Shown: positions 421 through 18,651 of the stretch, piece by piece | Layout: every line of letters begins with the position of its first letter | Numbering within the stretch: the stretch's first letter is position 1 | Source: a virus | Strand: one strand, 5' to 3' | Virus record (IMG/VR): IMGVR_UViG_3300008107_000765 | Location: 1 to 26,385 of that record | Length of the DNA: 26,385 bases | Notes under the pieces: model-generated | Seen by the model: the letters and a program-made list of their open reading frames with translations, nothing else | Database searches by the model: none | Told to the model about the DNA's origin: nothing | Translations under genes and position numbers: made by a program

Positions 421-909
421 ATGGCAGAAATACTAGAGTTTGATAAGATGTTCTATACGAACTTCGAACCTAAGATGAAGAATCGTTATGTGATGGAGAT
501 TGACGGTATCCCATCATATATGGTAAAAGCGGCAGCTAGACCTTCAATTCAATTTGAGAACGTTGTGTTAGACCACATCAACATCAAAAGAAAGTTGCAA
601 GGTAAAGGTGAGTGGCAAGATATTACTGTTACTCTTTATGACCCGATTGTACCATCTGCAGCTCAGGCTGTTATGGAGTGGGTACGTTTGGGACATGAAT
701 CAATCACTGGTAGAAGAGGATACGCTGATTTCTATAAAAAAGATATCACATTCTATATGTTAGGTCCTGTTGGTGATAAAATTGAACAATGGACTATTAA
801 AGGTGCATTTATTCAATCCGCTAACTTTGGTGATTTAGCATTCGATTCTAACGAACCTGCTACTATTGAATTAACATTATCTTACGATTACGCAATTCTT
901 GAATTCTAA
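421..909 (+). CDS. Tail tube protein (gp19-like)
   Basis: The product has 162 residues, almost the same length as T4 gp19. It forms the inner tail tube through which DNA passes. Visible family features are the N-terminal FYTNFEPKMKNRYVMEIDG segment, the central KRKLQGKGEWQDITVTLYDP strand pair, the MEWVRLGHESITGRRGYADFYKKD helix region, and the C-terminal IELTLSYDYAIL strand. The ATG at 421 follows an A-rich leader with an AAAGGACA element 7-14 bases upstream, one of the few SD-like sites here. The gene is monocistronic in appearance: a putative promoter box lies at 388-396 and a strong hairpin terminator follows at 931, fitting a protein needed in high copy number. Confidence 0.93.
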   Translation: MAEILEFDKMFYTNFEPKMKNRYVMEIDGIPSYMVKAAARPSIQFENVVLDHINIKRKLQGKGEWQDITVTLYDPIVPSAAQAVMEWVRLGHESITGRRGYADFYKKDITFYMLGPVGDKIEQWTIKGAFIQSANFGDLAFDSNEPATIELTLSYDYAILEF

Positions 910-1015: not shown

Positions 1016-1789
1016 ATGAACGAAAATAAAAAATTTGATTTCCCAACGGAAATAATTGAACTTCCATCAAAAGGATTAGTCTACCCAGAGGGACACCCAC
1101 TAAGAAAAGGTACTGTTGAAATTAAGTACATGACTGCAAAGGAAGAAGATATTCTTGCTTCGCAAAATCTTATTAAAAAAGGTATAGTTTTGGATAAATT
1201 ATTTGAATCCGTAGTTGTTGAAACCGGTGTAAATCCAAATGATATTATTTTGGGTGATAAAAATGCTATTCTTTTAGCAACAAGAGTTTTAGGTTATGGA
1301 CCAGACTATGAAGTAGAAATAACAGACCCATTCAGTTTAGAAAAACAAAAAGTTGTAATTGACCTTTCTAAGATTCAAACAAAAGATGTTGATGATTCGT
1401 TATTAAATGAGAAAAATAGATATAAATTTAAACTTCCAAATTCTAAAAAAGAAATTGAGTTTAAATTATTAACTCATGGTGATGATATTGAAATAACTAG
1501 AGAACAACAAGCATTAGAAAGATTAAATAAAAACGTACAAACAAGTTCAGATGTAACAACCCGATTCCGTTATATGATTACATCGGTTGATGGTAAGGAG
1601 GATAGAGGTTATATCAACAAATGGATTTTAAATGAATTTTTAGCATTAGATACTAAAGCATTCAGAAAGTATGTAAAACAAATTACTCCTGATATGGATT
1701 TAACATTCGTATTCACTTCAGAGTTAACTGGCGAAACGGAGGCGCTGGATATCCCATTCGGGATTAACTTTTTTTACCCTTCCAACTGA
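1016..1789 (+). CDS. Baseplate hub assembly chaperone, gp26-like (zero-frame product)
   Basis: The product has 257 residues; T4 gp26 is about 208. The N-terminal motif ELPSKGLVYPEGHPL (residues 15-29) followed by EIKYMTAKEEDIL is typical of the T4 gp26 baseplate-hub family, which helps assemble the central hub rather than remaining a major tail component. Its position between the tube and tape-measure genes agrees. The frame ends in INFFYPSN and TGA at 1787-1789. Seven T bases at 1769-1775 lie just before this stop, and a second conserved-looking frame continues in the +1 (or -2) register to 1991, so a longer fusion product is likely (see the next entry). An indel in the T run would be an alternative explanation. 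Function is a family assignment from motif and order. Confidence 0.72.
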   Translation: MNENKKFDFPTEIIELPSKGLVYPEGHPLRKGTVEIKYMTAKEEDILASQNLIKKGIVLDKLFESVVVETGVNPNDIILGDKNAILLATRVLGYGPDYEVEITDPFSLEKQKVVIDLSKIQTKDVDDSLLNEKNRYKFKLPNSKKEIEFKLLTHGDDIEITREQQALERLNKNVQTSSDVTTRFRYMITSVDGKEDRGYINKWILNEFLALDTKAFRKYVKQITPDMDLTFVFTSELTGETEALDIPFGINFFYPSN

Positions 1790-1991
1790 TTATAAAGTCC
1801 AACTTCATACACAAATTTGGGAGTTGGTTTATTTTGGAAATGGGGGATTCAATTGGGCAGATGTTTATAATATGCCAATCCACCTACGAAAATTCTATTT
1901 TAACAAATTGATAGAATTTAAGAAAAAGGAAGCAGAAGAGGTTAAAAAGGCTCAAAGTAAATCAAAAGTACCTAAAGTGAGGATGCGTTAA
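1776..1991 (+). CDS. Frameshift extension of gp26-like protein (tail assembly chaperone type)
   Basis: This 71-codon stretch is open in the frame +1 to the gp26-like gene, from a stop at 1725-1727 to TAA at 1989-1991. It has no ATG before the one about 100 bases in, within an apparently continuous domain, so ordinary initiation would lose its first half. It reads as a real protein: LPTDYKVQLHTQIWELVYFG, then NGGFNWADVYNMPIHLRKFY and a Lys/Glu-rich helical tail. At C-TTT-TTT-TAC (1768-1777) the P-site tRNA-Phe on 1772-1774 can re-pair perfectly with 1773-1775 (+1) or 1770-1772 (-2). A shift there would give a product of roughly 324 residues. The stop codon lies inside the loop and stem of the downstream terminator, which supports 1991 as the true end. 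Two-frame tail chaperones are well known (lambda G/GT, Mu); use here is inferred. Confidence 0.6.
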   Translation, partial: TLPTDYKVQLHTQIWELVYFGNGGFNWADVYNMPIHLRKFYFNKLIEFKKKEAEEVKKAQSKSKVPKVRMR

Positions 1992-2006
1992 TCCTCACTT
2001 TTTTAT
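1974..2006 (+). terminator. Rho-independent terminator overlapping the stop of the frameshift ORF
   Basis: A perfect 11-bp stem (AAAGTGAGGAT at 1974-1984 with ATCCTCACTTT at 1991-2001), a 6-base loop that contains most of the TAA stop, and a T tract to 2004. Its placement marks 1991 as the end of the upstream unit. Confidence 0.9.
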
Positions 2007-2041: not shown

Positions 2042-2257
2042 ATGTCCAATAAAAATAAACAAATTAATGAAGGTCTATTCGATGCGGCTGATAAATTCGT
2101 TGCTGCATTTTTTAAGGGATTGGAGAGAAATACTGCAAATCAAATAATTAAAAAAGCAGAAACTGCTAAATTACCACCTGAAGCAATTAAATTAATGAAA
2201 GATATTGAAGATAGAGGTGAGGAATTAAAAAGAATCGTAAAATCATTACAGAAGTAA
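2042..2257 (+). CDS. Small helical protein of unknown function, first gene of tape-measure operon
   Basis: A 71-residue, charged protein, predicted to be almost all helix. It has an NEGLFDAADKFVAAFFKGLE amphipathic segment in the first third and a Lys/Glu-rich second half (KLPPEAIKLMKDIEDRGEEL). I do not recognise a family. It is the first gene after the terminator at 1974-2006 and a putative promoter box, and it sits 7 bases before the tape-measure gene. A role as tape-measure chaperone or small baseplate component is suggested only by location. Sequence character matches its neighbours, so it looks like a real gene and not a chance frame. Confidence 0.75.
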   Translation: MSNKNKQINEGLFDAADKFVAAFFKGLERNTANQIIKKAETAKLPPEAIKLMKDIEDRGEELKRIVKSLQK

Positions 2258-2264
2258 ATTATAG

Positions 2265-4787
2265 ATGGCTGATAATACCAATATAGGAATACTCGAAAAG
2301 ATTAAAAAATTACGAGAGGATATAGCGGCTCTTCAAAATAAAGAAAAAGAGCTGACGGAGGCTGAGTCTGAAAATCTTACAAAGATGGAAACCAAGCTTT
2401 CAAAGCTTGTTACTATTCAAGAAAAAAGATTAAAAACGGCTTTAGGTACTAAACAAGCAGAGTTAGATTTAAGCGCAGCAATTTCGGCACAAGCTTCAGA
2501 GCTTAATTCAATTTCATCAATATATAAGGGATTAACAACATCACAAACTCAAAGTTTAAAAGTTGCACAAGCATCTTTAGTTTCAGTTCAGCAAGGATTG
2601 TTAGCTGATGAAACTAAAAAAGAAATTTTAAATAGTACTTTAACTGGTGTAACTGAATTACAAGGATTACAGCAAAAATTAGCAGAAAGTGGACCTGATG
2701 ATTTAGAAGTTCAACAATCTATTCGTGATGCATATAATTCTCAGTTAAATGGAATAAAAGAAACTATTACCGCTAAACAAACGTTGGGAGAAATCACAAA
2801 CGAAGAAGCTGATGCTTTGTTGCTAATGGTAAATTCTCAAGAGCAATCTTTACAAATTGCTGAAAAATATGCAACTGTATCTGCTGATACAAAAGATTAT
2901 TTACAATCACAAATAGATGTATATAAAGGTATTGGTAAAACACTTAGAGGTGTATTAAATACTGCTAAGATATTAACATCTGGGCCTGGTGGATTTTTTG
3001 GAGGATTGGCAATTGGTGCTGGTGTATTTGCTGAAAAATTAGGCGAAACTAGAGCACAATTGGGTGGTATATCTGAAATGGGTACAACTGCTTTAGCTTT
3101 CTTTGATGATAATGCTGTTGAAAATGCAAAAGAATTAGCAAACCAATTTGGTGGAATAAATAACGTATCAGCCGAATTACAAGCTTCAACATCATTGATA
3201 TCCGCAAATATGGGTATTAGTGGAACTGAAGCAGCTGGATTATTAGGTTCGTTTAGTAGATTAAATGGTAATAGTGAAGAAGCGGCTCTTAATTTAACAA
3301 AATCAACACAAGAGTTTGCAAAACAAAACGGAATAATTCCATCACAATTAATGGCTGATTTGGCAGGTTCTGCTGAAGAGTTTGCATTATTTGGAAAAGA
3401 AGGTGGTAAGAATCTTATAGAGGCTGGAGCAGCAGCTAGAAAGATGGGTGTATCACTTAGTACAATGACCGGTATTTCTGAAAACCTTTTGGATTTTGAA
3501 TCATCAATTACAAAAGAATTGGAATTGGGTGCTATGTTAGGTAAGAACATTAACTTAGACAGAGCACGTTCATTAGCTTATCAAGGTGATATAGCTGGTG
3601 CAACAAAAGAAACATTAGCAGCATTGGGTGGCGTGGATGCTTTCAACAAAATGGATTATTTCCAAAAGAAAGCAACGGCTGATTTATTGGGTACAACGGT
3701 TGATGAACTTCAAAAAATGGTAACTCAGCAAGAAAACGCAAATACAATTGGTGGACAACTTAATGAGAAGTTCAGTTTAATGGGTGAAACCTTAGATGCT
3801 GGGTTAAACAAATATTTAGGTACATCATTAAAATCATTGGGTGGTATGATAATGGCCGGAGCTCAGCTTGGCGGTTCATTTGCCCAAATGGGAGTTGATG
3901 TAAAAGGTATAGCACAAGGTACGGGAGGGTTCTTAAAAAATTTAGTAAGTGCGCCATTTAAAAAGATTGGTAGTTTATTTGGTGGTGGTGCAGCAGCTGG
4001 AGCTGGTGCATTGGGTGATAATAAAGTAAAAGTTCCCGATGGACCGGATGTAGGTAAAAAAGGTGGATTGATGGATTCTATGTCCAAAATTAAAATGAGT
4101 GAAGTTCTCAAAGGTGCGGCAGCAATGTTAGTTGTAGCAGCAGCTGTATTTGTATTTGGAAAAGCAGTTCAAGAATTTATGAAAGTAAGTTGGGAAGCTG
4201 TTGGTATGGCTGTGGTATCTATGTTGGCATTGGTTGGTGCAGTTGCTTTATTAGGAGCAATTATGACAAGTGGTGTTGGTGCAGTAGCAATATTAGCTGG
4301 AGCAGCGGCAATGTTAGTAATAGCAGCATCTGTATTGGTATTAGGATACGCTCTTCAGGCAATTGGAACTGGTTTTCAAATGATGAGTGCTGGTATAGGA
4401 ACATTAGTTCCAAATTTAACAATGGTCGGTGAAGCAATAATGGGTATGGTAACATTTATACCAGCAATAGCAGCATTATCATTAGCATTGATGGGATTAT
4501 CGGCATCATTGATAGCAGTTGGTGCTGCTGGTGTAATAGCATTACCTGGTTTATTAGCAGTAGCAGCAGTTGGTGCAATTGCAACTGGAGTTGGTTCATT
4601 ATTAGGAGTTGGTGGTGAAGAAGCGGGTGGTGAGGGTGCTAAAATGGATGAATTAATAACTGAAATTAAAGCACTAAGAGAAGATTTAAATGCTGGTAAA
4701 ATAGCTGTTTATATGGATGGTAGTAAAGTTACATCTGGAATTACCAAAGTTGTTAGTAAAGTATCTAGCAACTCATATGGAGGTTAA
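2265..4787 (+). CDS. Tail tape measure protein (gp29-equivalent)
   Basis: The product has 840 residues, the longest in the tail block. The N-terminal ~80 residues are strongly charged and coiled-coil-like (ILEKIKKLREDIAALQNKEK). The middle is Ala/Gly/Ser/Gln-rich helix. The C-terminal third (about residues 610-790) contains several long hydrophobic stretches rich in Ala, Val, Met and Leu, as in tape-measure proteins that insert in the host membrane on ejection. Tape-measure length sets tail length: at about 0.15 nm per residue the tail would be about 125 nm at most, somewhat longer than in T4, whose gp29 is about 590 residues. Its place between hub chaperone and baseplate/tube genes matches T4 gene 29. 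Start ATG is 7 bases after the preceding stop, which suggests cotranscription. Confidence 0.85.
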   Translation: MADNTNIGILEKIKKLREDIAALQNKEKELTEAESENLTKMETKLSKLVTIQEKRLKTALGTKQAELDLSAAISAQASELNSISSIYKGLTTSQTQSLKVAQASLVSVQQGLLADETKKEILNSTLTGVTELQGLQQKLAESGPDDLEVQQSIRDAYNSQLNGIKETITAKQTLGEITNEEADALLLMVNSQEQSLQIAEKYATVSADTKDYLQSQIDVYKGIGKTLRGVLNTAKILTSGPGGFFGGLAIGAGVFAEKLGETRAQLGGISEMGTTALAFFDDNAVENAKELANQFGGINNVSAELQASTSLISANMGISGTEAAGLLGSFSRLNGNSEEAALNLTKSTQEFAKQNGIIPSQLMADLAGSAEEFALFGKEGGKNLIEAGAAARKMGVSLSTMTGISENLLDFESSITKELELGAMLGKNINLDRARSLAYQGDIAGATKETLAALGGVDAFNKMDYFQKKATADLLGTTVDELQKMVTQQENANTIGGQLNEKFSLMGETLDAGLNKYLGTSLKSLGGMIMAGAQLGGSFAQMGVDVKGIAQGTGGFLKNLVSAPFKKIGSLFGGGAAAGAGALGDNKVKVPDGPDVGKKGGLMDSMSKIKMSEVLKGAAAMLVVAAAVFVFGKAVQEFMKVSWEAVGMAVVSMLALVGAVALLGAIMTSGVGAVAILAGAAAMLVIAASVLVLGYALQAIGTGFQMMSAGIGTLVPNLTMVGEAIMGMVTFIPAIAALSLALMGLSASLIAVGAAGVIALPGLLAVAAVGAIATGVGSLLGVGGEEAGGEGAKMDELITEIKALREDLNAGKIAVYMDGSKVTSGITKVVSKVSSNSYGG

Positions 4788-9630: not shown

Positions 9631-9987
9631 ATGGATTTAGAAAGATATAATAATATATTAGTAAGTAAAAGAGAATTTACACAAATCAAAATTACTCCTA
9701 GCGTACCAACCCCAAACGATAATGATTATAAAAGGGGTTATATAGTTAGATATTTTGTACAAAAGGTAAATGATACAACTTCTCCTGTTTATGAGGTTAG
9801 TTCAAAATCACATAGTTCTTTTGTAAACAATTCTTTTTATAGTGTTGTATCTTTAGATTGGAGATTAACCGGAAGTGTTGAGCAAATAAAAGAATCTAAC
9901 TCAAACTCGGTAAAATTGGCTTCCGAAAGAATGAAAGCTATTTTGTTGTATCTTCCAAACTATTTGCAGTTTGCAAAGATTGGATAA
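9631..9987 (+). CDS. Small protein of unknown function at end of tail operon
   Basis: A 118-residue protein. I chose ATG 9631, directly after the preceding stop (TAAT-ATG), because the in-frame TTG at 9595 lies deep inside the upstream gene. The sequence has an ITPSVPTPNDNDYKRGYIVRYFVQK segment, followed by Ser-rich loops and a short C-terminal helix. I do not recognise a family. As the last gene of the baseplate run it may be a minor structural or assembly protein. Its last 50 bases overlap the end of the minus-strand gene at 9938-10957. Confidence 0.7.
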   Translation: MDLERYNNILVSKREFTQIKITPSVPTPNDNDYKRGYIVRYFVQKVNDTTSPVYEVSSKSHSSFVNNSFYSVVSLDWRLTGSVEQIKESNSNSVKLASERMKAILLYLPNYLQFAKIG

Positions 9988-10957
9988 TTTCTTCTTTATA
10001 CCTTTCGTATATACCACCATACTTATCCCAACAATTTCCATTAGTAAGTAATTCTTGTCCTGATTTTATAAGCATTTCTGCAATCTTTGGTAACTTACAA
10101 TTACACTCATCATTATTGATAAAATATTTAGCTCCCCATAAATGGTAATAACTTTCGTTAATCATTTCTTGAATAGACTTTCTATCTTCTTCTGCTGAAA
10201 ATCTATTAAAAAAAGCTGAATTGAATATTATTGGTAAAACTTGTCCTGAACGAAATATAGTATCAGTAGACATGTATTTTTCAACCAAAGCTCCTAACAT
10301 AGCTTGTTCGGCAAATATAACTGCTGCAGATGGGGCTATGTAAGAAGTAAGAATTCCATTTACAATAACATTATCTTTTAATAATTCTTCTGCTATGTTT
10401 ATAAACTCACCTTTATTATCTAATACAAAATTAAAATACCTTTGTGTGAATTCTTTTTTAAAAATTTCATTATTAAAATATAAAACGGCAGCATTAATTG
10501 GTGTAGAAATTCTAAAATAATACAACATATCGGATTCCCATTTAAATCCATTTGGGGTTGATATTTCATATGGTCTTGGATATACATTAGAAGTTTCTCT
10601 ATGTAAATAACCAAAATCAAAATGTTCAAATTCTTTTAATGGTCTACTATAAATTAAATCAGTATCTATAATAGCAAATGGTGTTGGTAATTTAGAAATA
10701 GCCCATATTTTGGGTGATGACCAAAATGCATCAGAAATTCTATCATATGGGTAATCATCAAATATATCCGTTATAACATCATCGTAGATATCCACCAATT
10801 CTAATGATTTAAAAATCTCAAATGATTTTTTATCTGTAAGTAAAATTATTGGTATTTTTGGATTTATCATTTTGTGTTTAATAACAGCATATAGTTGAAC
10901 TAAACATTCGTATGGAGAAATTTTAGTACTAATGATAAAAGAGTGGTAACATTTCAT
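9938..10957 (-). CDS. Glycosyltransferase-like protein (GT-A fold, GT8/DUF6734-like)
   Basis: A 339-residue protein read right to left, the only convincing minus-strand gene in the window. A Rossmann-like N-terminus is followed by PIILLTD (about residues 36-42), then FWSSPKIWAISKL and a metal-binding DxD-type AIIDTDLIYSRP (Asp98-Thr-Asp100). This order resembles nucleotide-sugar transferases of the GT8 type and DUF6734-like relatives. Expected role: transfer of a sugar from a nucleotide donor to an unknown acceptor, such as virion protein, phage DNA or host surface glycan. It overlaps the convergent gene 9631-9987 by 50 bases. Orientation, location among tail genes and isolation suggest a moron-like insertion. 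The start ATG is preceded by very AT-rich DNA without a clear promoter. Confidence 0.7.
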   Translation of the reverse strand: MKCYHSFIISTKISPYECLVQLYAVIKHKMINPKIPIILLTDKKSFEIFKSLELVDIYDDVITDIFDDYPYDRISDAFWSSPKIWAISKLPTPFAIIDTDLIYSRPLKEFEHFDFGYLHRETSNVYPRPYEISTPNGFKWESDMLYYFRISTPINAAVLYFNNEIFKKEFTQRYFNFVLDNKGEFINIAEELLKDNVIVNGILTSYIAPSAAVIFAEQAMLGALVEKYMSTDTIFRSGQVLPIIFNSAFFNRFSAEEDRKSIQEMINESYYHLWGAKYFINNDECNCKLPKIAEMLIKSGQELLTNGNCWDKYGGIYERYKEEIIQSLQTANSLEDTTK

Positions 10958-11988: not shown

Positions 11989-13020
11989 ATGAAAGTTACA
12001 GTAGTAGTCAGAACATATAATCGCCAAAAGTTTTTAGAAGAAGCTTTGGTATCAATAGAATTACAAACCCACAATAATTGGGAAGTTATTCTATTTGATG
12101 ATGGTGCGGATAATAATAATTTTGAAATTTATAAAAAATTCAAATTAAGAAATCCATCTAAACGAATTGTATATTTTACAACCAATACACAGCGAGAATT
12201 ATTTTCAAAAAGTTGGTTAATATCACCGGATTTGGCTGAAGGTGAAATAATTGTACGATTGGATGATGATGACCTATTAGTAAGAGATTCTTTGGAATTT
12301 TTAGTTAATCTATATACTAAAAACTCTGAATTAGATTTTTCATTTGGGTCTTGTGTAAATTTTACAAAAAAAGATGGACCAACTAAATTAGTTGAAACCC
12401 GTACACCATTTGAAATTGAAAAAGTACGTTCAACTTGGGCAGCGTATATAATTCCTAATAATCATCCTTGGAAACACCCTTGGAGATTTGTAGAAGATTA
12501 TTATGATGAACCACAACATTGGACATCTTTAATCCATTGTAGTAAGGCTAACATATTTTGTGTATATCACACATATGCTATGCGAACATCATCCATTAAA
12601 AAGGTAAAGGATAAAATCGAATTGAAATCTAAGTTTGCAGATGATTTAGAATTTTTAGGTAGTTTAGAATATTTGGGATTGGGATATAACTCCATAAAAA
12701 GAATACTATCTTATGTAAGGGTACATGATGAGGGGAGAGTTTCTGATGATGGCATTGAATACGATGGTACTAAAATGAGAGATGATATTTTGGAATTGAG
12801 AGATAATGTTGAATACCTAAGACCTTCTGGGTTTTTACCAAAGATTATTAATTTGGATTATGAAAAAAATCTAAATATGTCTATGGGTGTAACAAATACT
12901 ATAAAATCTGAATTCCGAAGATACTATAATCAAATTAAAAATACTATAAATCCGGTTGAAAGGAAAGAACTGCCTGTAAAATTAGTTGGTACGAATATAA
13001 ACTTAGATGTTTTATCATAA
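11989..13020 (+). CDS. Glycosyltransferase family 2
   Basis: A 343-residue protein with the GT2 GT-A fold. The N-terminal VVVRTYNRQKFLEEALVSI is followed by NNWEVILFDDGA (Asp37-Asp38, nucleotide binding), then IIVRLDDDDLL (Asp92-Asp95, the DxD metal site). The acceptor half has a WKHPWRFVEDYYDEPQHW loop and a FADDLEFLGSLEYLG segment. GT2 enzymes transfer a sugar from a nucleotide donor; the acceptor here is unknown. The ATG begins 10 bases after the tmRNA CCA without a promoter or terminator in between, so it is probably read from the tmRNA promoter. The polymerase promoter starts on the next base after its stop. With the minus-strand enzyme at 9938 it makes two transferases around the virion protein 11038. 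Confidence 0.88.
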   Translation: MKVTVVVRTYNRQKFLEEALVSIELQTHNNWEVILFDDGADNNNFEIYKKFKLRNPSKRIVYFTTNTQRELFSKSWLISPDLAEGEIIVRLDDDDLLVRDSLEFLVNLYTKNSELDFSFGSCVNFTKKDGPTKLVETRTPFEIEKVRSTWAAYIIPNNHPWKHPWRFVEDYYDEPQHWTSLIHCSKANIFCVYHTYAMRTSSIKKVKDKIELKSKFADDLEFLGSLEYLGLGYNSIKRILSYVRVHDEGRVSDDGIEYDGTKMRDDILELRDNVEYLRPSGFLPKIINLDYEKNLNMSMGVTNTIKSEFRRYYNQIKNTINPVERKELPVKLVGTNINLDVLS

Positions 13021-14997: not shown

Positions 14998-17900
14998 ATG
15001 ACGGTAGAGAACATAATAAATGAAATCCTTATAGAATGGGCTTATAGAGTTGATAATGGAACACCTAGCCCAAAAAACGATGAACATATTTCGGTTTTAT
15101 CTGAAGTATTAAGCGAAATGGGTTTATCTGCGATTAAGGATGAATTATTACAAAACCTTAGAGAAGAAGAAACTAAATACAAAAATCCAGCACTAAATAA
15201 AATTGTTAAATACAAAAGTAAAGATGGTGAGGATAAAGAAGGTGTAGTTGGAAATCTTTTAAGATTGAAAAGAGGAACACCTGGTAGAGAAGCAGCTGAA
15301 AAAACCTTACCACCTGAAGGAACTCCGGAAAGAGATAGTATGGATAATGAGTTAGGTTCTCAGAAAAAAGGTACAACTCAAGCTCAAAAACCTTCAGCTG
15401 AAAAACCAGCAGCAGATGCTGATACAAAAGCAGCACAATCTAAGATGTTTACTGATGACCCTGCTGCAAAAGCATCGGTTGAAAAGGAAAAAGATACAAT
15501 GGATAAGATAGCTAAAGCAGATGCTGAAGCTGATTCTGAAAATTCATTTGTAAATAAATTAAAAAACAAATTAAAGAGTTGGGGTAGTGAAGAGAAAAAA
15601 TTCTTCCAAAATGGTGAACATAAGCCAGGTTCTGAAACCCGTAGAACATTAGGTGAAGCTATTAAAGATAAAGCAAAATCAGTTGGTATAAAGATAGCAA
15701 CAACCGCAGTATTTGGTGCTGCTATGGGTGGATTATCACATGGAGCCGCTTACTTTGCTAAACACGTTGCCGTAGAATTTATACCACACGTTGTTGGTGA
15801 AACACTTTTAAAAGGAGTTGGTAGAGCAGCAATATTTGCCGATGCAGATGGTGAAGCGGAAACTGAAGCAAATATGATAAAGTTTGCTGAAATGATTGCA
15901 GATGGTATTGAAAATATGGAGATGTCTCCTGAAGATTTAGAAAAAATTGTAGATGGTTGGAATACTCATAAAGCTGGGATTGTTTATGAATCAATTGAAG
16001 AAGCTGATGGGAAACAATTTGTAAATCCAGTTTTAAATAAAGTTATAAAATATAAAAACGCCAAAGGTGAAGATGCTGAAGGTTTAATTGGAAATTTATT
16101 AAGATTACCAAAAGAACACCCTGGTAGACAGGCGGCAGAAAGACAATTACCACCGGAGGGAAGTCAAGAAAGAGACCAATTAAATAAAGATTTGGGTTCG
16201 GAGAAAGATGGTAAAGAACAACCATCTGCGGAAACACAACCACAAGCCCAACAACCTGAGCCGCAGCAGACTAAGAGTATGTATTCTGATGACCCTGCTA
16301 TGAAGGCTATGTTGGATAAGGAAAAGGAAGTGATGGCTAAATTAGCAAAAGTTGATGAACCAACAACTCCTACCAAAACAACCGAACCAACTGATAAGAG
16401 TGGATTCCAACCAATAGATGCGGCAGATGTACAATCTGAAATACCACAAGCTGATACAGACGCTTTTAGTGGTTTTTCAACAATTGATACAATTTCAGCT
16501 GAACAAATGAAATCAATATCAATGAAAATTGATGATTTGGCTAGAATGGCTGATGAGGCTAAAGCTAAAGGTTTAAACGCACCTAATTTTAATTTGTGTA
16601 AAATAACTGTACCTGGTACAAATTTATATTGTGATAATAATTTAGGTATCCCAAGAGAAGAGATGCCACAATTCAAAGGTAAACCTCAAGCCGGCTCTAA
16701 AGCAGAAAGTATGCCAAAGGATGCTAGTGGTGAAGTTGATACCGAACCGGTGTTTAGAGAAATGTTGGCAAAGAAAGGTATAAAAGTAGTTGATACTGAA
16801 GTACCATCAGATGCTCTTAAAGCAACTCAATCGGAATTGGTTGGTGCTAAAGTAGCTGGTATGACCAAAGCATTAGAAAAAGACCCAGAACATCCAAAAA
16901 TTACTGCTCCAATTTATGTAAGTAGAGATGGATATGTAATAGATGGACATCATCGTTGGGCAGCAATGACATCTAAAGCAATTAAAGATGGTACTCCAAC
17001 AAATATGAAAGTTAGAGTCATTGATATGGATGCTAAAGATATTATACCAATGGCAAATAAATTTGCTGAAGAAATTGGAGTAGCAGCTAAGAAAGCAGAT
17101 GCTAACGCTGAAGCACCTACATTACCAAAAGATTTACAACCAAAAGTAACCGATGATAAAAAAGGTGAAACCGCACAAACTGCAAGTGGTAAAAGATTAT
17201 ATAGTTTAGGTGGAGGATATTATTCAGATAAGCCGGGTGGTGAGGCAAAATATATTAGAACCGAATCAGTATTAGAAAAAGCATTAGTTCAAGAAGATGT
17301 TCAATCATTATTCCTATTGTTTGAAGAAACTTTAAGTGGTGTAACTGGTAAGGGTGAACGAATCACAGTAAAAGTTCTTCCACAAAAAGCAGTTAAAACT
17401 GCAACTGCTCAAGCTAAAAAAGTAGCTGGGGCTGGAAAGGAAGAAATAAGTAAAAAGTTTAGTAACCAAACTATAAAGAAGGAAGTAGAAAAATTAAATA
17501 CTATGGATTCTTTGGTTGTTAGTTCTGATAAAGAAACCAAAACCAGAGTAAACATTCTAAAAAAGAATTGGTTAAAATACCTAAATGCTGATACTAAAGA
17601 GAAAAAAATAGAAGCCCTTAAAGAAATGGCTGAATATAATTTGATTGAAGGGCATGCTGGTGGTAAAAAGATATATCTTTCGGCAAATACAACATTACCA
17701 TATAAACACTTAACTGGTGGGGCTGGTACAACTGTAACCGAAGAAATGAATCAGTTAATTATAGATGCTGGTATTGATGTACCATTGAGAGGTGGTGCAA
17801 AGGATAGGGCTTTGGCTGATATGAGTGGAAAGCATAATGAAGCTGGTGTTGTATCTTACATATTCTCATCAAAAGAAAACAAAGATGCTTATGCAGCTAC

Positions 17901-18651
17901 TCAAAAAAGTTTTAAAGAATTAGGTGGAGATGAACCTAAGTTTGATAAAATCAATAAAAAAGCAGCTGAAAGTATTAAAGAATTATTACCAAAAGGTTCT
18001 AAAATAACTGGGGCTCAGCAAGTTGGTGGTGTTGGTAAAACAGCCTTAATGAAATTGGGTATTGACCCTAAAGTAGACCCAACTGATTTGGTGGTACATT
18101 ATACTAACCCAAGTGGTAAGCAGGATATTATGAAAGTATCTGCTAAAACATATTCTGACCCTAAAAATATAACAATGAAAAATTCCGGCGTTACAAATGC
18201 TGGTGAAGTTTATTTAGGGAGTATTGGAAAGTCCGTAGATGACCAAGTTTCTCTTTGGAGAAAGAAATATGCTTGGAATGATTCAATGACAGAAGAACAA
18301 AAAGCAGAAAAAAAGAAAAACCTAAAACAGGAATACCTTTCAGCTTTTAGTAAGAAAATGGTAGAATTAAGTAAAACCGAACAAGGACAAAAACAACTTA
18401 CCAAAATGTGGAAAGATGTTCATGGTTGTGGTAAGAATGTATATACTCAAATTATTAACAAAAATACTGGAGAGGTTGAAGTAAAATCACCTGATTATTA
18501 TTGTAATCCAAAACCACCATATGAAATTAAATATGATGGTGTTAAATTGGTTATCAATATGGGAGGACAAGATAATACGTTTATTCAAATCGATATGAAA
18601 ACGGAAGATAAGGGTTCGCCAAAATTACTATTTAGACACAGAACCAAATAA
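14998..18651 (+). CDS. 1217-residue multidomain protein: repeats, ParB-like motif, possible nuclease-like C-terminus
   Basis: The longest gene in the window; I do not recognise it as a whole. Visible order: a ~50-residue N-terminal module (EILIEWAYRVDNGTPSPKND); repeat 1 (about residues 63-125) and an MFTDDPA motif (150); a Lys/Glu-rich region; a hydrophobic Gly/Ala segment (about 230-280); repeat 2 (343-405) and MYSDDPA (428); a Pro/Gln/Thr linker; then a ParB/sulfiredoxin-like core, SRDGYVIDGHHRWAAM (642-657); a second linker; and a folded C-terminal ~400 residues. There, HNEAG (946-950), PTDLVVHY (1028-1035) and KVSAKTY (1046-1052) are spaced like the acid, Asp and (E/S)xK of PD-(D/E)xK nucleases, which is tentative. 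A virion-internal or ejected DNA-acting protein is a plausible guess. It follows the nuclease gene by 6 bases, presumably in one operon. Confidence 0.8.
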   Translation: MTVENIINEILIEWAYRVDNGTPSPKNDEHISVLSEVLSEMGLSAIKDELLQNLREEETKYKNPALNKIVKYKSKDGEDKEGVVGNLLRLKRGTPGREAAEKTLPPEGTPERDSMDNELGSQKKGTTQAQKPSAEKPAADADTKAAQSKMFTDDPAAKASVEKEKDTMDKIAKADAEADSENSFVNKLKNKLKSWGSEEKKFFQNGEHKPGSETRRTLGEAIKDKAKSVGIKIATTAVFGAAMGGLSHGAAYFAKHVAVEFIPHVVGETLLKGVGRAAIFADADGEAETEANMIKFAEMIADGIENMEMSPEDLEKIVDGWNTHKAGIVYESIEEADGKQFVNPVLNKVIKYKNAKGEDAEGLIGNLLRLPKEHPGRQAAERQLPPEGSQERDQLNKDLGSEKDGKEQPSAETQPQAQQPEPQQTKSMYSDDPAMKAMLDKEKEVMAKLAKVDEPTTPTKTTEPTDKSGFQPIDAADVQSEIPQADTDAFSGFSTIDTISAEQMKSISMKIDDLARMADEAKAKGLNAPNFNLCKITVPGTNLYCDNNLGIPREEMPQFKGKPQAGSKAESMPKDASGEVDTEPVFREMLAKKGIKVVDTEVPSDALKATQSELVGAKVAGMTKALEKDPEHPKITAPIYVSRDGYVIDGHHRWAAMTSKAIKDGTPTNMKVRVIDMDAKDIIPMANKFAEEIGVAAKKADANAEAPTLPKDLQPKVTDDKKGETAQTASGKRLYSLGGGYYSDKPGGEAKYIRTESVLEKALVQEDVQSLFLLFEETLSGVTGKGERITVKVLPQKAVKTATAQAKKVAGAGKEEISKKFSNQTIKKEVEKLNTMDSLVVSSDKETKTRVNILKKNWLKYLNADTKEKKIEALKEMAEYNLIEGHAGGKKIYLSANTTLPYKHLTGGAGTTVTEEMNQLIIDAGIDVPLRGGAKDRALADMSGKHNEAGVVSYIFSSKENKDAYAATQKSFKELGGDEPKFDKINKKAAESIKELLPKGSKITGAQQVGGVGKTALMKLGIDPKVDPTDLVVHYTNPSGKQDIMKVSAKTYSDPKNITMKNSGVTNAGEVYLGSIGKSVDDQVSLWRKKYAWNDSMTEEQKAEKKKNLKQEYLSAFSKKMVELSKTEQGQKQLTKMWKDVHGCGKNVYTQIINKNTGEVEVKSPDYYCNPKPPYEIKYDGVKLVINMGGQDNTFIQIDMKTEDKGSPKLLFRHRTK
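15184..15372 (+). repeat. Tandem-type protein repeat copy 1 in 1217-residue protein
   Basis: Encodes NPALNKIVKYKSKDGEDKEG, then GNLLRLKRGTPGREAAEKTL, then PPEGTPERDSMDNELGS. About 30 bases later comes MFTDDPA. Copy 2 begins exactly 840 bases (280 codons) downstream and has the same anchors. Confidence 0.9.
16024..16215 (+). repeat. Tandem-type protein repeat copy 2 in 1217-residue protein
   Basis: Encodes NPVLNKVIKYKNAKGEDAEG, GNLLRLPKEHPGRQAAERQL and PPEGSQERDQLNKDLGS, followed by MYSDDPA as in copy 1. Roughly two thirds of residues agree with copy 1, so the whole ~90-residue unit was duplicated within the gene. Confidence 0.9.

Follow-up and report, generated by a model that had tools for sequence, protein, structure and literature searches.

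Tail chaperones made by frameshifting are classical. In phage lambda, a single gene between the tail tube and tape measure genes gives a short and a frameshift-extended form (G/GT, or TAC-N/TAC-NC; PMC5009743). In T4, gp26 and gp51 are listed as hub-assembly chaperones (PMC3004832), and the TACs of T4-like phages, some apparently with −1 sites, were treated by Vladimirov et al. (Virology 2022), as relayed in PMC10885494 and PMC12846349. Tail genes with +1 frameshifts include those of Listeria phage PSA (CCC_UGA) and the tail chaperone of the archaeal myovirus HSTV-2 (PMC5009743). In prfB (release factor 2), a single P-site tRNA moves +1 at CUU_UGA. With 70S ribosomes, a hairpin placed upstream, adjoining the E-site, raises +1 slippage (PMC6321510); in these engineered constructs, and at the 5' stem loop of T4 gene 60 (PMC5009743), a stem-loop refolds behind the ribosome and pushes the frame forward.

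Here we analyzed a window of 26,385 nucleotides from a virus (IMG/VR record IMGVR_UViG_3300008107_000765), in which the initial annotation had proposed a programmed ribosomal frameshift joining a gp26-like frame (ORF1) to a second domain in the +1 frame (ORF2). We consider it highly likely that the locus is a single tail-chaperone gene encoding a 257-aa TAC-N and, by a +1 slip at UUU, a 324-aa TAC-NC. The arrangement resembles lambda G/GT in having a short and an extended form of one gene at the same place, but the shift would be +1 instead of −1, the PF12322 core is far larger than gpG, and the candidate stimulator, a hairpin, lies 5' of the slip site. T4 gp26 and gp51 belong to the same protein family and resemble the short and the long form, respectively; T4 encodes them in two paralogous genes, −1 sites occur in S-PM2, KVP40 and others, and the window has a +1 site. 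As in prfB, a single P-site tRNA would move +1, and an immuto-like subgroup uses CUU_U, whereas the slip site contains no stop codon and a hairpin occupies the position of the Shine-Dalgarno (SD) sequence, of which the window has none at the RF2-type spacing of 3 nt upstream of the slip site. Compared by description, PSA uses a different codon, and PMC5009743 mentions no 5' hairpin for the PSA and HSTV-2 systems. In contrast to the engineered hairpins, the candidate hairpin is natural, lies in a tail gene and recurs in many phages.

Organization of the locus

ORF1 matches PF12322 above the cut-off (E 7e-6; 26.3 bits, cut-off 24.5) and phrog_150 (E 2e-11; 4.8e-12 for the fused protein), in line with its initial assignment as gp26-like. 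Its 3' end reads AAC TTT TTT TAC CCT TCC AAC TGA, and in the +1 frame no stop interrupts the stretch between the T run and TAA 1989-1991, whose translation is TLPTDYKVQLHTQIWELVYFGNGGFNWADVYNMPIHLRKFYFNKLIEFKKK... (Table 1). The T run, the zero-frame stop and the 71-residue +1 domain of the initial annotation were all reproduced at the positions in Table 1; the computed length of the predicted fused product is 324 aa, equal to the approximate length first given, and the ORF2 stop falls within the loop or 3' arm of the terminator-like stem, as had been noticed.

Table 1 Features of the chaperone locus in the window and records used for comparison
Feature	Position or accession	Strand	Match or remark
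Upstream neighbor, gp19-like tail tube protein	421..909	+	PF06841, E 1.8e-7; phrog_4542, E 4e-31
ORF1, short product of 257 aa, TAC-N-like	1016..1789	+	PF12322 T4_baseplate; phrog_150
Candidate +1 stimulator, 5' hairpin ATCCC-ATTC-GGGAT	1751..1764	+	4 nt ahead of T7, by the E-site
Slippery T7	1769..1775	+	P-site TTT 1772-1774, putative re-pairing with 1773-1775 (+1)
ORF2, +1 frame, 71-aa helical C-terminal domain	1776..1991	+	Homologue of the T4 gp51 C-terminus
Zero-frame stop TGA, end of short product	1787..1789	+	
Terminator-like stem-loop over the ORF2 stop	1974..2001	+	11 pairs, T tail
71-aa small ORF between chaperone and tape measure	2042..2257	+	No significant match
Downstream neighbor, tape measure protein	2265..4787	+	phrog_4372 tape measure, E 2.3e-4
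T4-superfamily −1 records	NC_006820, NC_020484, NC_025422, NC_027204, NC_005083, NC_013697		gp26-like gene with the gp51 C-terminal domain in its −1 frame, after T_TTT_TTY

The order tail tube, chaperone, tape measure is also found in the Flavobacterium phage immuto and in Bacillus SP-15. Because the gene sits between the tail tube and the tape measure, its sequence context indicates that the gene, although labeled a baseplate 'hub' part, very probably encodes the tail-assembly chaperone (TAC-N/TAC-NC) in a short and a long form. The initial annotation had regarded frameshifting in a gp26-type hub gene as notable; its comparison with lambda and Mu applies, but the hub label gives way to that of a tail-assembly chaperone.

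The AlphaFold2 model of the fused protein has a pLDDT of 90.8, and the only stretch below 50 is residues 250-257 at the frameshift junction, modeled as a disordered linker ahead of a +1 part of three helices. The best match among solved structures is the HK97 tail assembly chaperone (gp13, 2ob9), a weak one (Z 4.9, rmsd 4.6, 90 aligned), and a Foldseek search against the PDB gave no significant match (2ob9 probability 0.16); the modeled likeness to the HK97 chaperone fold is suggestive only. The named BFVD matches are mostly T4-type baseplate or chaperone proteins.

Elsewhere in the window, a 1217-aa ORF (14998-18651) carries two copies of a motif resembling NPxLNKxxKYKxxxGEDxEGxxGNLLRLxxxxPGRxAAExxLPPEG and is possibly virion-associated. 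Two ORFs that look glycosyltransferase-like by eye (9938-10957 on the minus strand and 11989-13020 on the plus strand) lie between the structural and replication genes.

Conservation of the junction

Scans of IMG/VR with each part separately gave 80 and 49 loci, and after further scans +1 junctions were parsed at 232 loci on ~190 contigs, the two initial scans having loci in common; no relatives came from scanning 84,980 bacterial genomes. Among the near relatives (39 distinct junctions), the zero-frame stop comes 5-6 codons after the start of the T run and the +1 domain lies beyond it. The initial annotation had named a fused frame with another T count, or loss of the downstream domain, as evidence against the frameshift; the near relatives instead keep the T7, the phase and the +1 domain. 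The sole near-relative junction lacking the intact arrangement, L057, has an earlier stop, and all others have an identical T7 in the same phase. The stop in L057 is a TAA inside ORF1 at about two-thirds of its length and is probably due to misassembly or to decay of this copy. In the T-run comparison that had been suggested, all near relatives but L057 have T7, but a run of exactly seven is not essential family-wide (TTC TTT T, TTT CTT T, TTT TTT C).

The arrangement is also present in isolated phages: Microcystis phage Mel-JY01, immuto, Rhodothermus phage RM378, Bacillus SP-15, Listeria LIS04, Streptococcus GXN1, Streptomyces BRock and Xanthomonas phiXF1. Beyond the zero-frame stop, third positions of the +1 frame vary most, and ORF2 has a pN/pS of 0.25 (0.30 for ORF1); by this sequence measure, the domain is under purifying selection. 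Homopolymers are error-prone in sequencing generally, and a miscounted T that splits one intact ORF, or a decaying gene, would be a rival explanation of the junction. The same phase in ~190 assemblies and in isolates from different laboratories already refutes this explanation, whose probability we regard as negligible. Since relatives share the T7 phase, pN/pS is 0.25 and the isolates were sequenced independently, the comparison confirms that the arrangement is neither chance nor sequencing error.

ORF2 might instead be a separate gene, whose translation would re-initiate at TTG 1824 or be coupled to the TGA. Such a start codon exists in the window, and in L232 and L237 (both ~3205-3500), which have no usable slip site, ORF2 is separate with its own ATG directly after the ORF1 stop; in these sequences, loss of the site accompanies gain of a start. 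Against this explanation, TTG 1824 lies inside the conserved ORF2 domain, the residues ahead of it (TLPTDYKVQLHTQIWE) are conserved, none of 34 relatives has a +1-frame ATG ahead of the domain or within its first 15 codons, and the same domain is fused in frame in T4 gp51. The earlier statement that the domain lacks a usable start thus stands, and a separate gene is very unlikely. A frameshift joining the two parts, as first proposed, is strongly supported by the retained slippery codon, phase and downstream domain.

Direction of the shift

In the window and its clade, the domain is encoded in the +1 frame, unlike in the canonical −1 pattern (X_XXY_YYZ). The sites of the +1 family read TTT TTT T, TTC TTT T, TTT CTT T, TTC TTT C, AAC TTT C, CTG TTT C and TTT TTT C, and TTT TTT A was found once, in LIS04, with a third-position mismatch on +1 re-pairing. 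The requirement shared by these sites, UUU or CUU in the P site with U or C after it, favors single-tRNA +1 slippage. Across 33 clusters (70% identity), the slip codon is TTT in 30 and CTT in 3, whereas elsewhere in these genes TTC accounts for 91 of 314 Phe codons (preference for TTT, log10 P = −6.9, relatedness ignored). Because the slip codon was chosen by script as TTT or CTT, this enrichment test is partly circular, and the unfiltered junction lists are the real check; there, TTC is absent from the slip codon of every +1 member. A point against is that in nearly all members the A site holds TAC or TGG in the zero frame, so a stop codon would not be what pauses the ribosome.

The initial annotation left the register open between +1 and −2, and a −2 shift, in which tRNA-Phe moves back two bases on the T7 and adds one extra Phe, yields the same frame. 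It is possible on the window T7 and is listed for Mu (PMC5009743), for which this mode has been proposed; TTT is likewise enriched one codon before the slip codon (28/31), and TTT TTT A of LIS04 re-pairs better at −2. The relatives with TTC TTT T, TTC TTT C, AAC TTT C and CTG TTT C argue otherwise, as they would mispair at −2 and pair well at +1, and in three of these (TTC TTT T, TTC TTT C, CTG TTT C) proper re-pairing at −2 is not possible. Because the distant relatives TTC TTT TGG, GAA TTC TTT CGT and CTG TTT CGC pair properly only at +1, we favor +1 and consider the −2 shift improbable.

Transcriptional slippage, with the RNA polymerase dropping or adding Ts on the T7 so that some mRNAs carry the fused frame, is a further alternative. 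A+T-rich genomes do show such slippage, usually at longer runs, and T7 is present in most members. Yet phase and domain persist where the run is broken (TTTCTTT, TTCTTTT, CTGTTTC), and run length does not drift, which makes this source of the fused frame very improbable compared with a +1 shift on the ribosome.

RNA structure at the slip site

The minimum free energy (MFE) just 5' of the site is below that of synonymous controls in five clades (z −4.4 for the window clade, then −4.3, −5.6, −2.3 and −6.8). Control windows are mostly near zero, although the third clade has two upstream controls at about −3.3. In a scan of 58 non-redundant members, the MFE signal peaks at −42 to 0, and downstream windows also reach significant z-scores at several places. 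As relatedness inflates the z values and the synonymous controls ignore phylogeny, we place weight on the upstream peak, which exceeds controls of the same width, and on a covarying 3' helix described below.

The 5' stems ATCCC/GGGAT, ATTCC/GGAAT and ATACC/GGTAT preserve pairing despite sequence change, and one relative has a 9-pair stem. The stable 5' hairpins number 32, and in 28 of them the 3' end lies 0-4 nt ahead of the codon that precedes the slip codon, which places it against the E-site. In most clades, RNAalifold gave no convincing consensus pairing of the 5' element, as the hairpin registers differ between sequences. One subclade, the L106 group, has no 5' hairpin; instead, a 7-pair hairpin lies on the 3' side, with 12 doubly changed cells (0/500 shuffles as high). 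The energies of the 5' and 3' elements are anticorrelated (rho −0.52, to which clade structure contributes).

Hairpin 1751-1764 and its T tail are also scored as terminator-like in a scan, and the two could form an intrinsic terminator within the gene, unrelated to recoding. The 5' hairpin is nevertheless present where there is no T tract, in L130 (AAC TTT CTA) and BRock (CTG TTT CGC), and one subclade has the covarying 3' hairpin in its place; we regard a terminator as quite unlikely.

An SD-like motif precedes just 3 of 21 genes in the window. This count would fit a Bacteroidota phage, although a motif count does not establish host identity. Given this scarcity and the result on upstream hairpins (PMC6321510), it is plausible, by analogy, that the hairpin substitutes for an SD. 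More broadly, we tentatively propose, at a little under an even chance, that in a large lineage of contractile-tailed phages a natural 5' mRNA hairpin refolding on the E-site stimulates +1 slippage at UUU_Y in place of an SD helix, and that at least one subclade has swapped it for a 3' hairpin.

Homology with T4 gp26 and gp51

ORF2 alone has no significant match in Pfam or PHROG, so its homology required profile-profile comparison. The ORF2 profile matches the C-termini of −1-class phages plus gp51 with an hhalign probability of 96.4 (E 1.3e-9), against at most 1.1 for 20 column-shuffled profiles. Firmicute ORF2 (SP-15, LIS04) is not significant against the gp51 set alone (probability 16) and connects only via the window group (90).

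T4 gp26 and gp51 each match PF12322 over its full length, with a C-terminal extension only in gp51; by sequence, they are paralogues. In a first set, the phrog_150 core occurs once in each of 12 other phage records and 2 environmental records, and twice in T4. Every frameshift genome has one copy; T4 and four other gp51-bearing phages have two. In S-PM2, HTVC008M, Cr30 and phiM12, phrog_150 finds the core and a C-terminal part in an overlapping −1 frame, and inspection revealed the same −1-frame domain in KVP40 and phiW-14; all six sites are T_TTT_TTY. Most −1 sites have a purine-rich GGAGGG- or GAGGG-like element ~9 nt upstream (read by eye, without statistics), the spacing known for −1 frameshifting (PMC5009743), and some have strong 3' hairpins (z −4.3 in S-PM2).

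In a tree of the cores (root not established, some long branches), the gp26 and gp51 copies cluster (95/92) inside the −1 T4-superfamily group. The +1 phages form a second large group, shared with the −1 jumbo phages Atu_ph07 and PA5oct, from which we infer that the direction of the shift changed in evolution. A later duplication appears to underlie the T4 arrangement, with gp26 as the short and gp51 as the long form; the heptamer is gone from T4 gp26 (GAG TTC TTT GAG).

Discussion

The following mechanism would account for the locus. The majority of ribosomes would terminate at TGA 1787 and release the 257-aa short form, the putative counterpart of T4 gp26 and lambda gpG. In a minority, tRNA-Phe on the P-site UUU (1772-1774) would slip +1 onto UUU (1773-1775), probably stimulated by the 5' hairpin refolding against the E-site in place of the internal Shine-Dalgarno of prfB. 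The shifted ribosomes would reach TAA 1989 and produce the 324-aa long form, whose extra helical domain would make it the counterpart of T4 gp51 and lambda gpGT. By analogy with lambda, the short form may coat the tape measure, the extra domain may recruit tail-tube subunits, and both forms would depart before the virion is complete.

No earlier report of the +1 branch or its hairpins was found in the open-access literature searched. The branch appears new, together with the RNA elements near its sites: in most clades a hairpin on the 5' side, against the E-site, and in another a covarying one on the 3' side. Public annotation treats the second domain as a separate gene in Mel-JY01 and includes just the end of the domain in immuto; in deposited genomes, the domain is misannotated or dropped. 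The branch provides a natural series of sites varying in slip codon, spacing and hairpin, in which hairpin-driven +1 slippage is directly testable.

The family also bears on two older observations. In 2010, cyanophage and marine vibriophage 'gp51' proteins were found to lack the first ~200 residues (PMC3037559); the cyanophage and KVP40 'gp51' would be short because their first part is encoded in the gp26-like gene, to which a −1 frameshift joins them. According to a 2016 recoding review, G-T frameshifting is conserved throughout the long-tailed phages, 'except T4' (PMC5009743); the core tree and the copy numbers place T4 gp26 and gp51 inside an otherwise frameshifting family.
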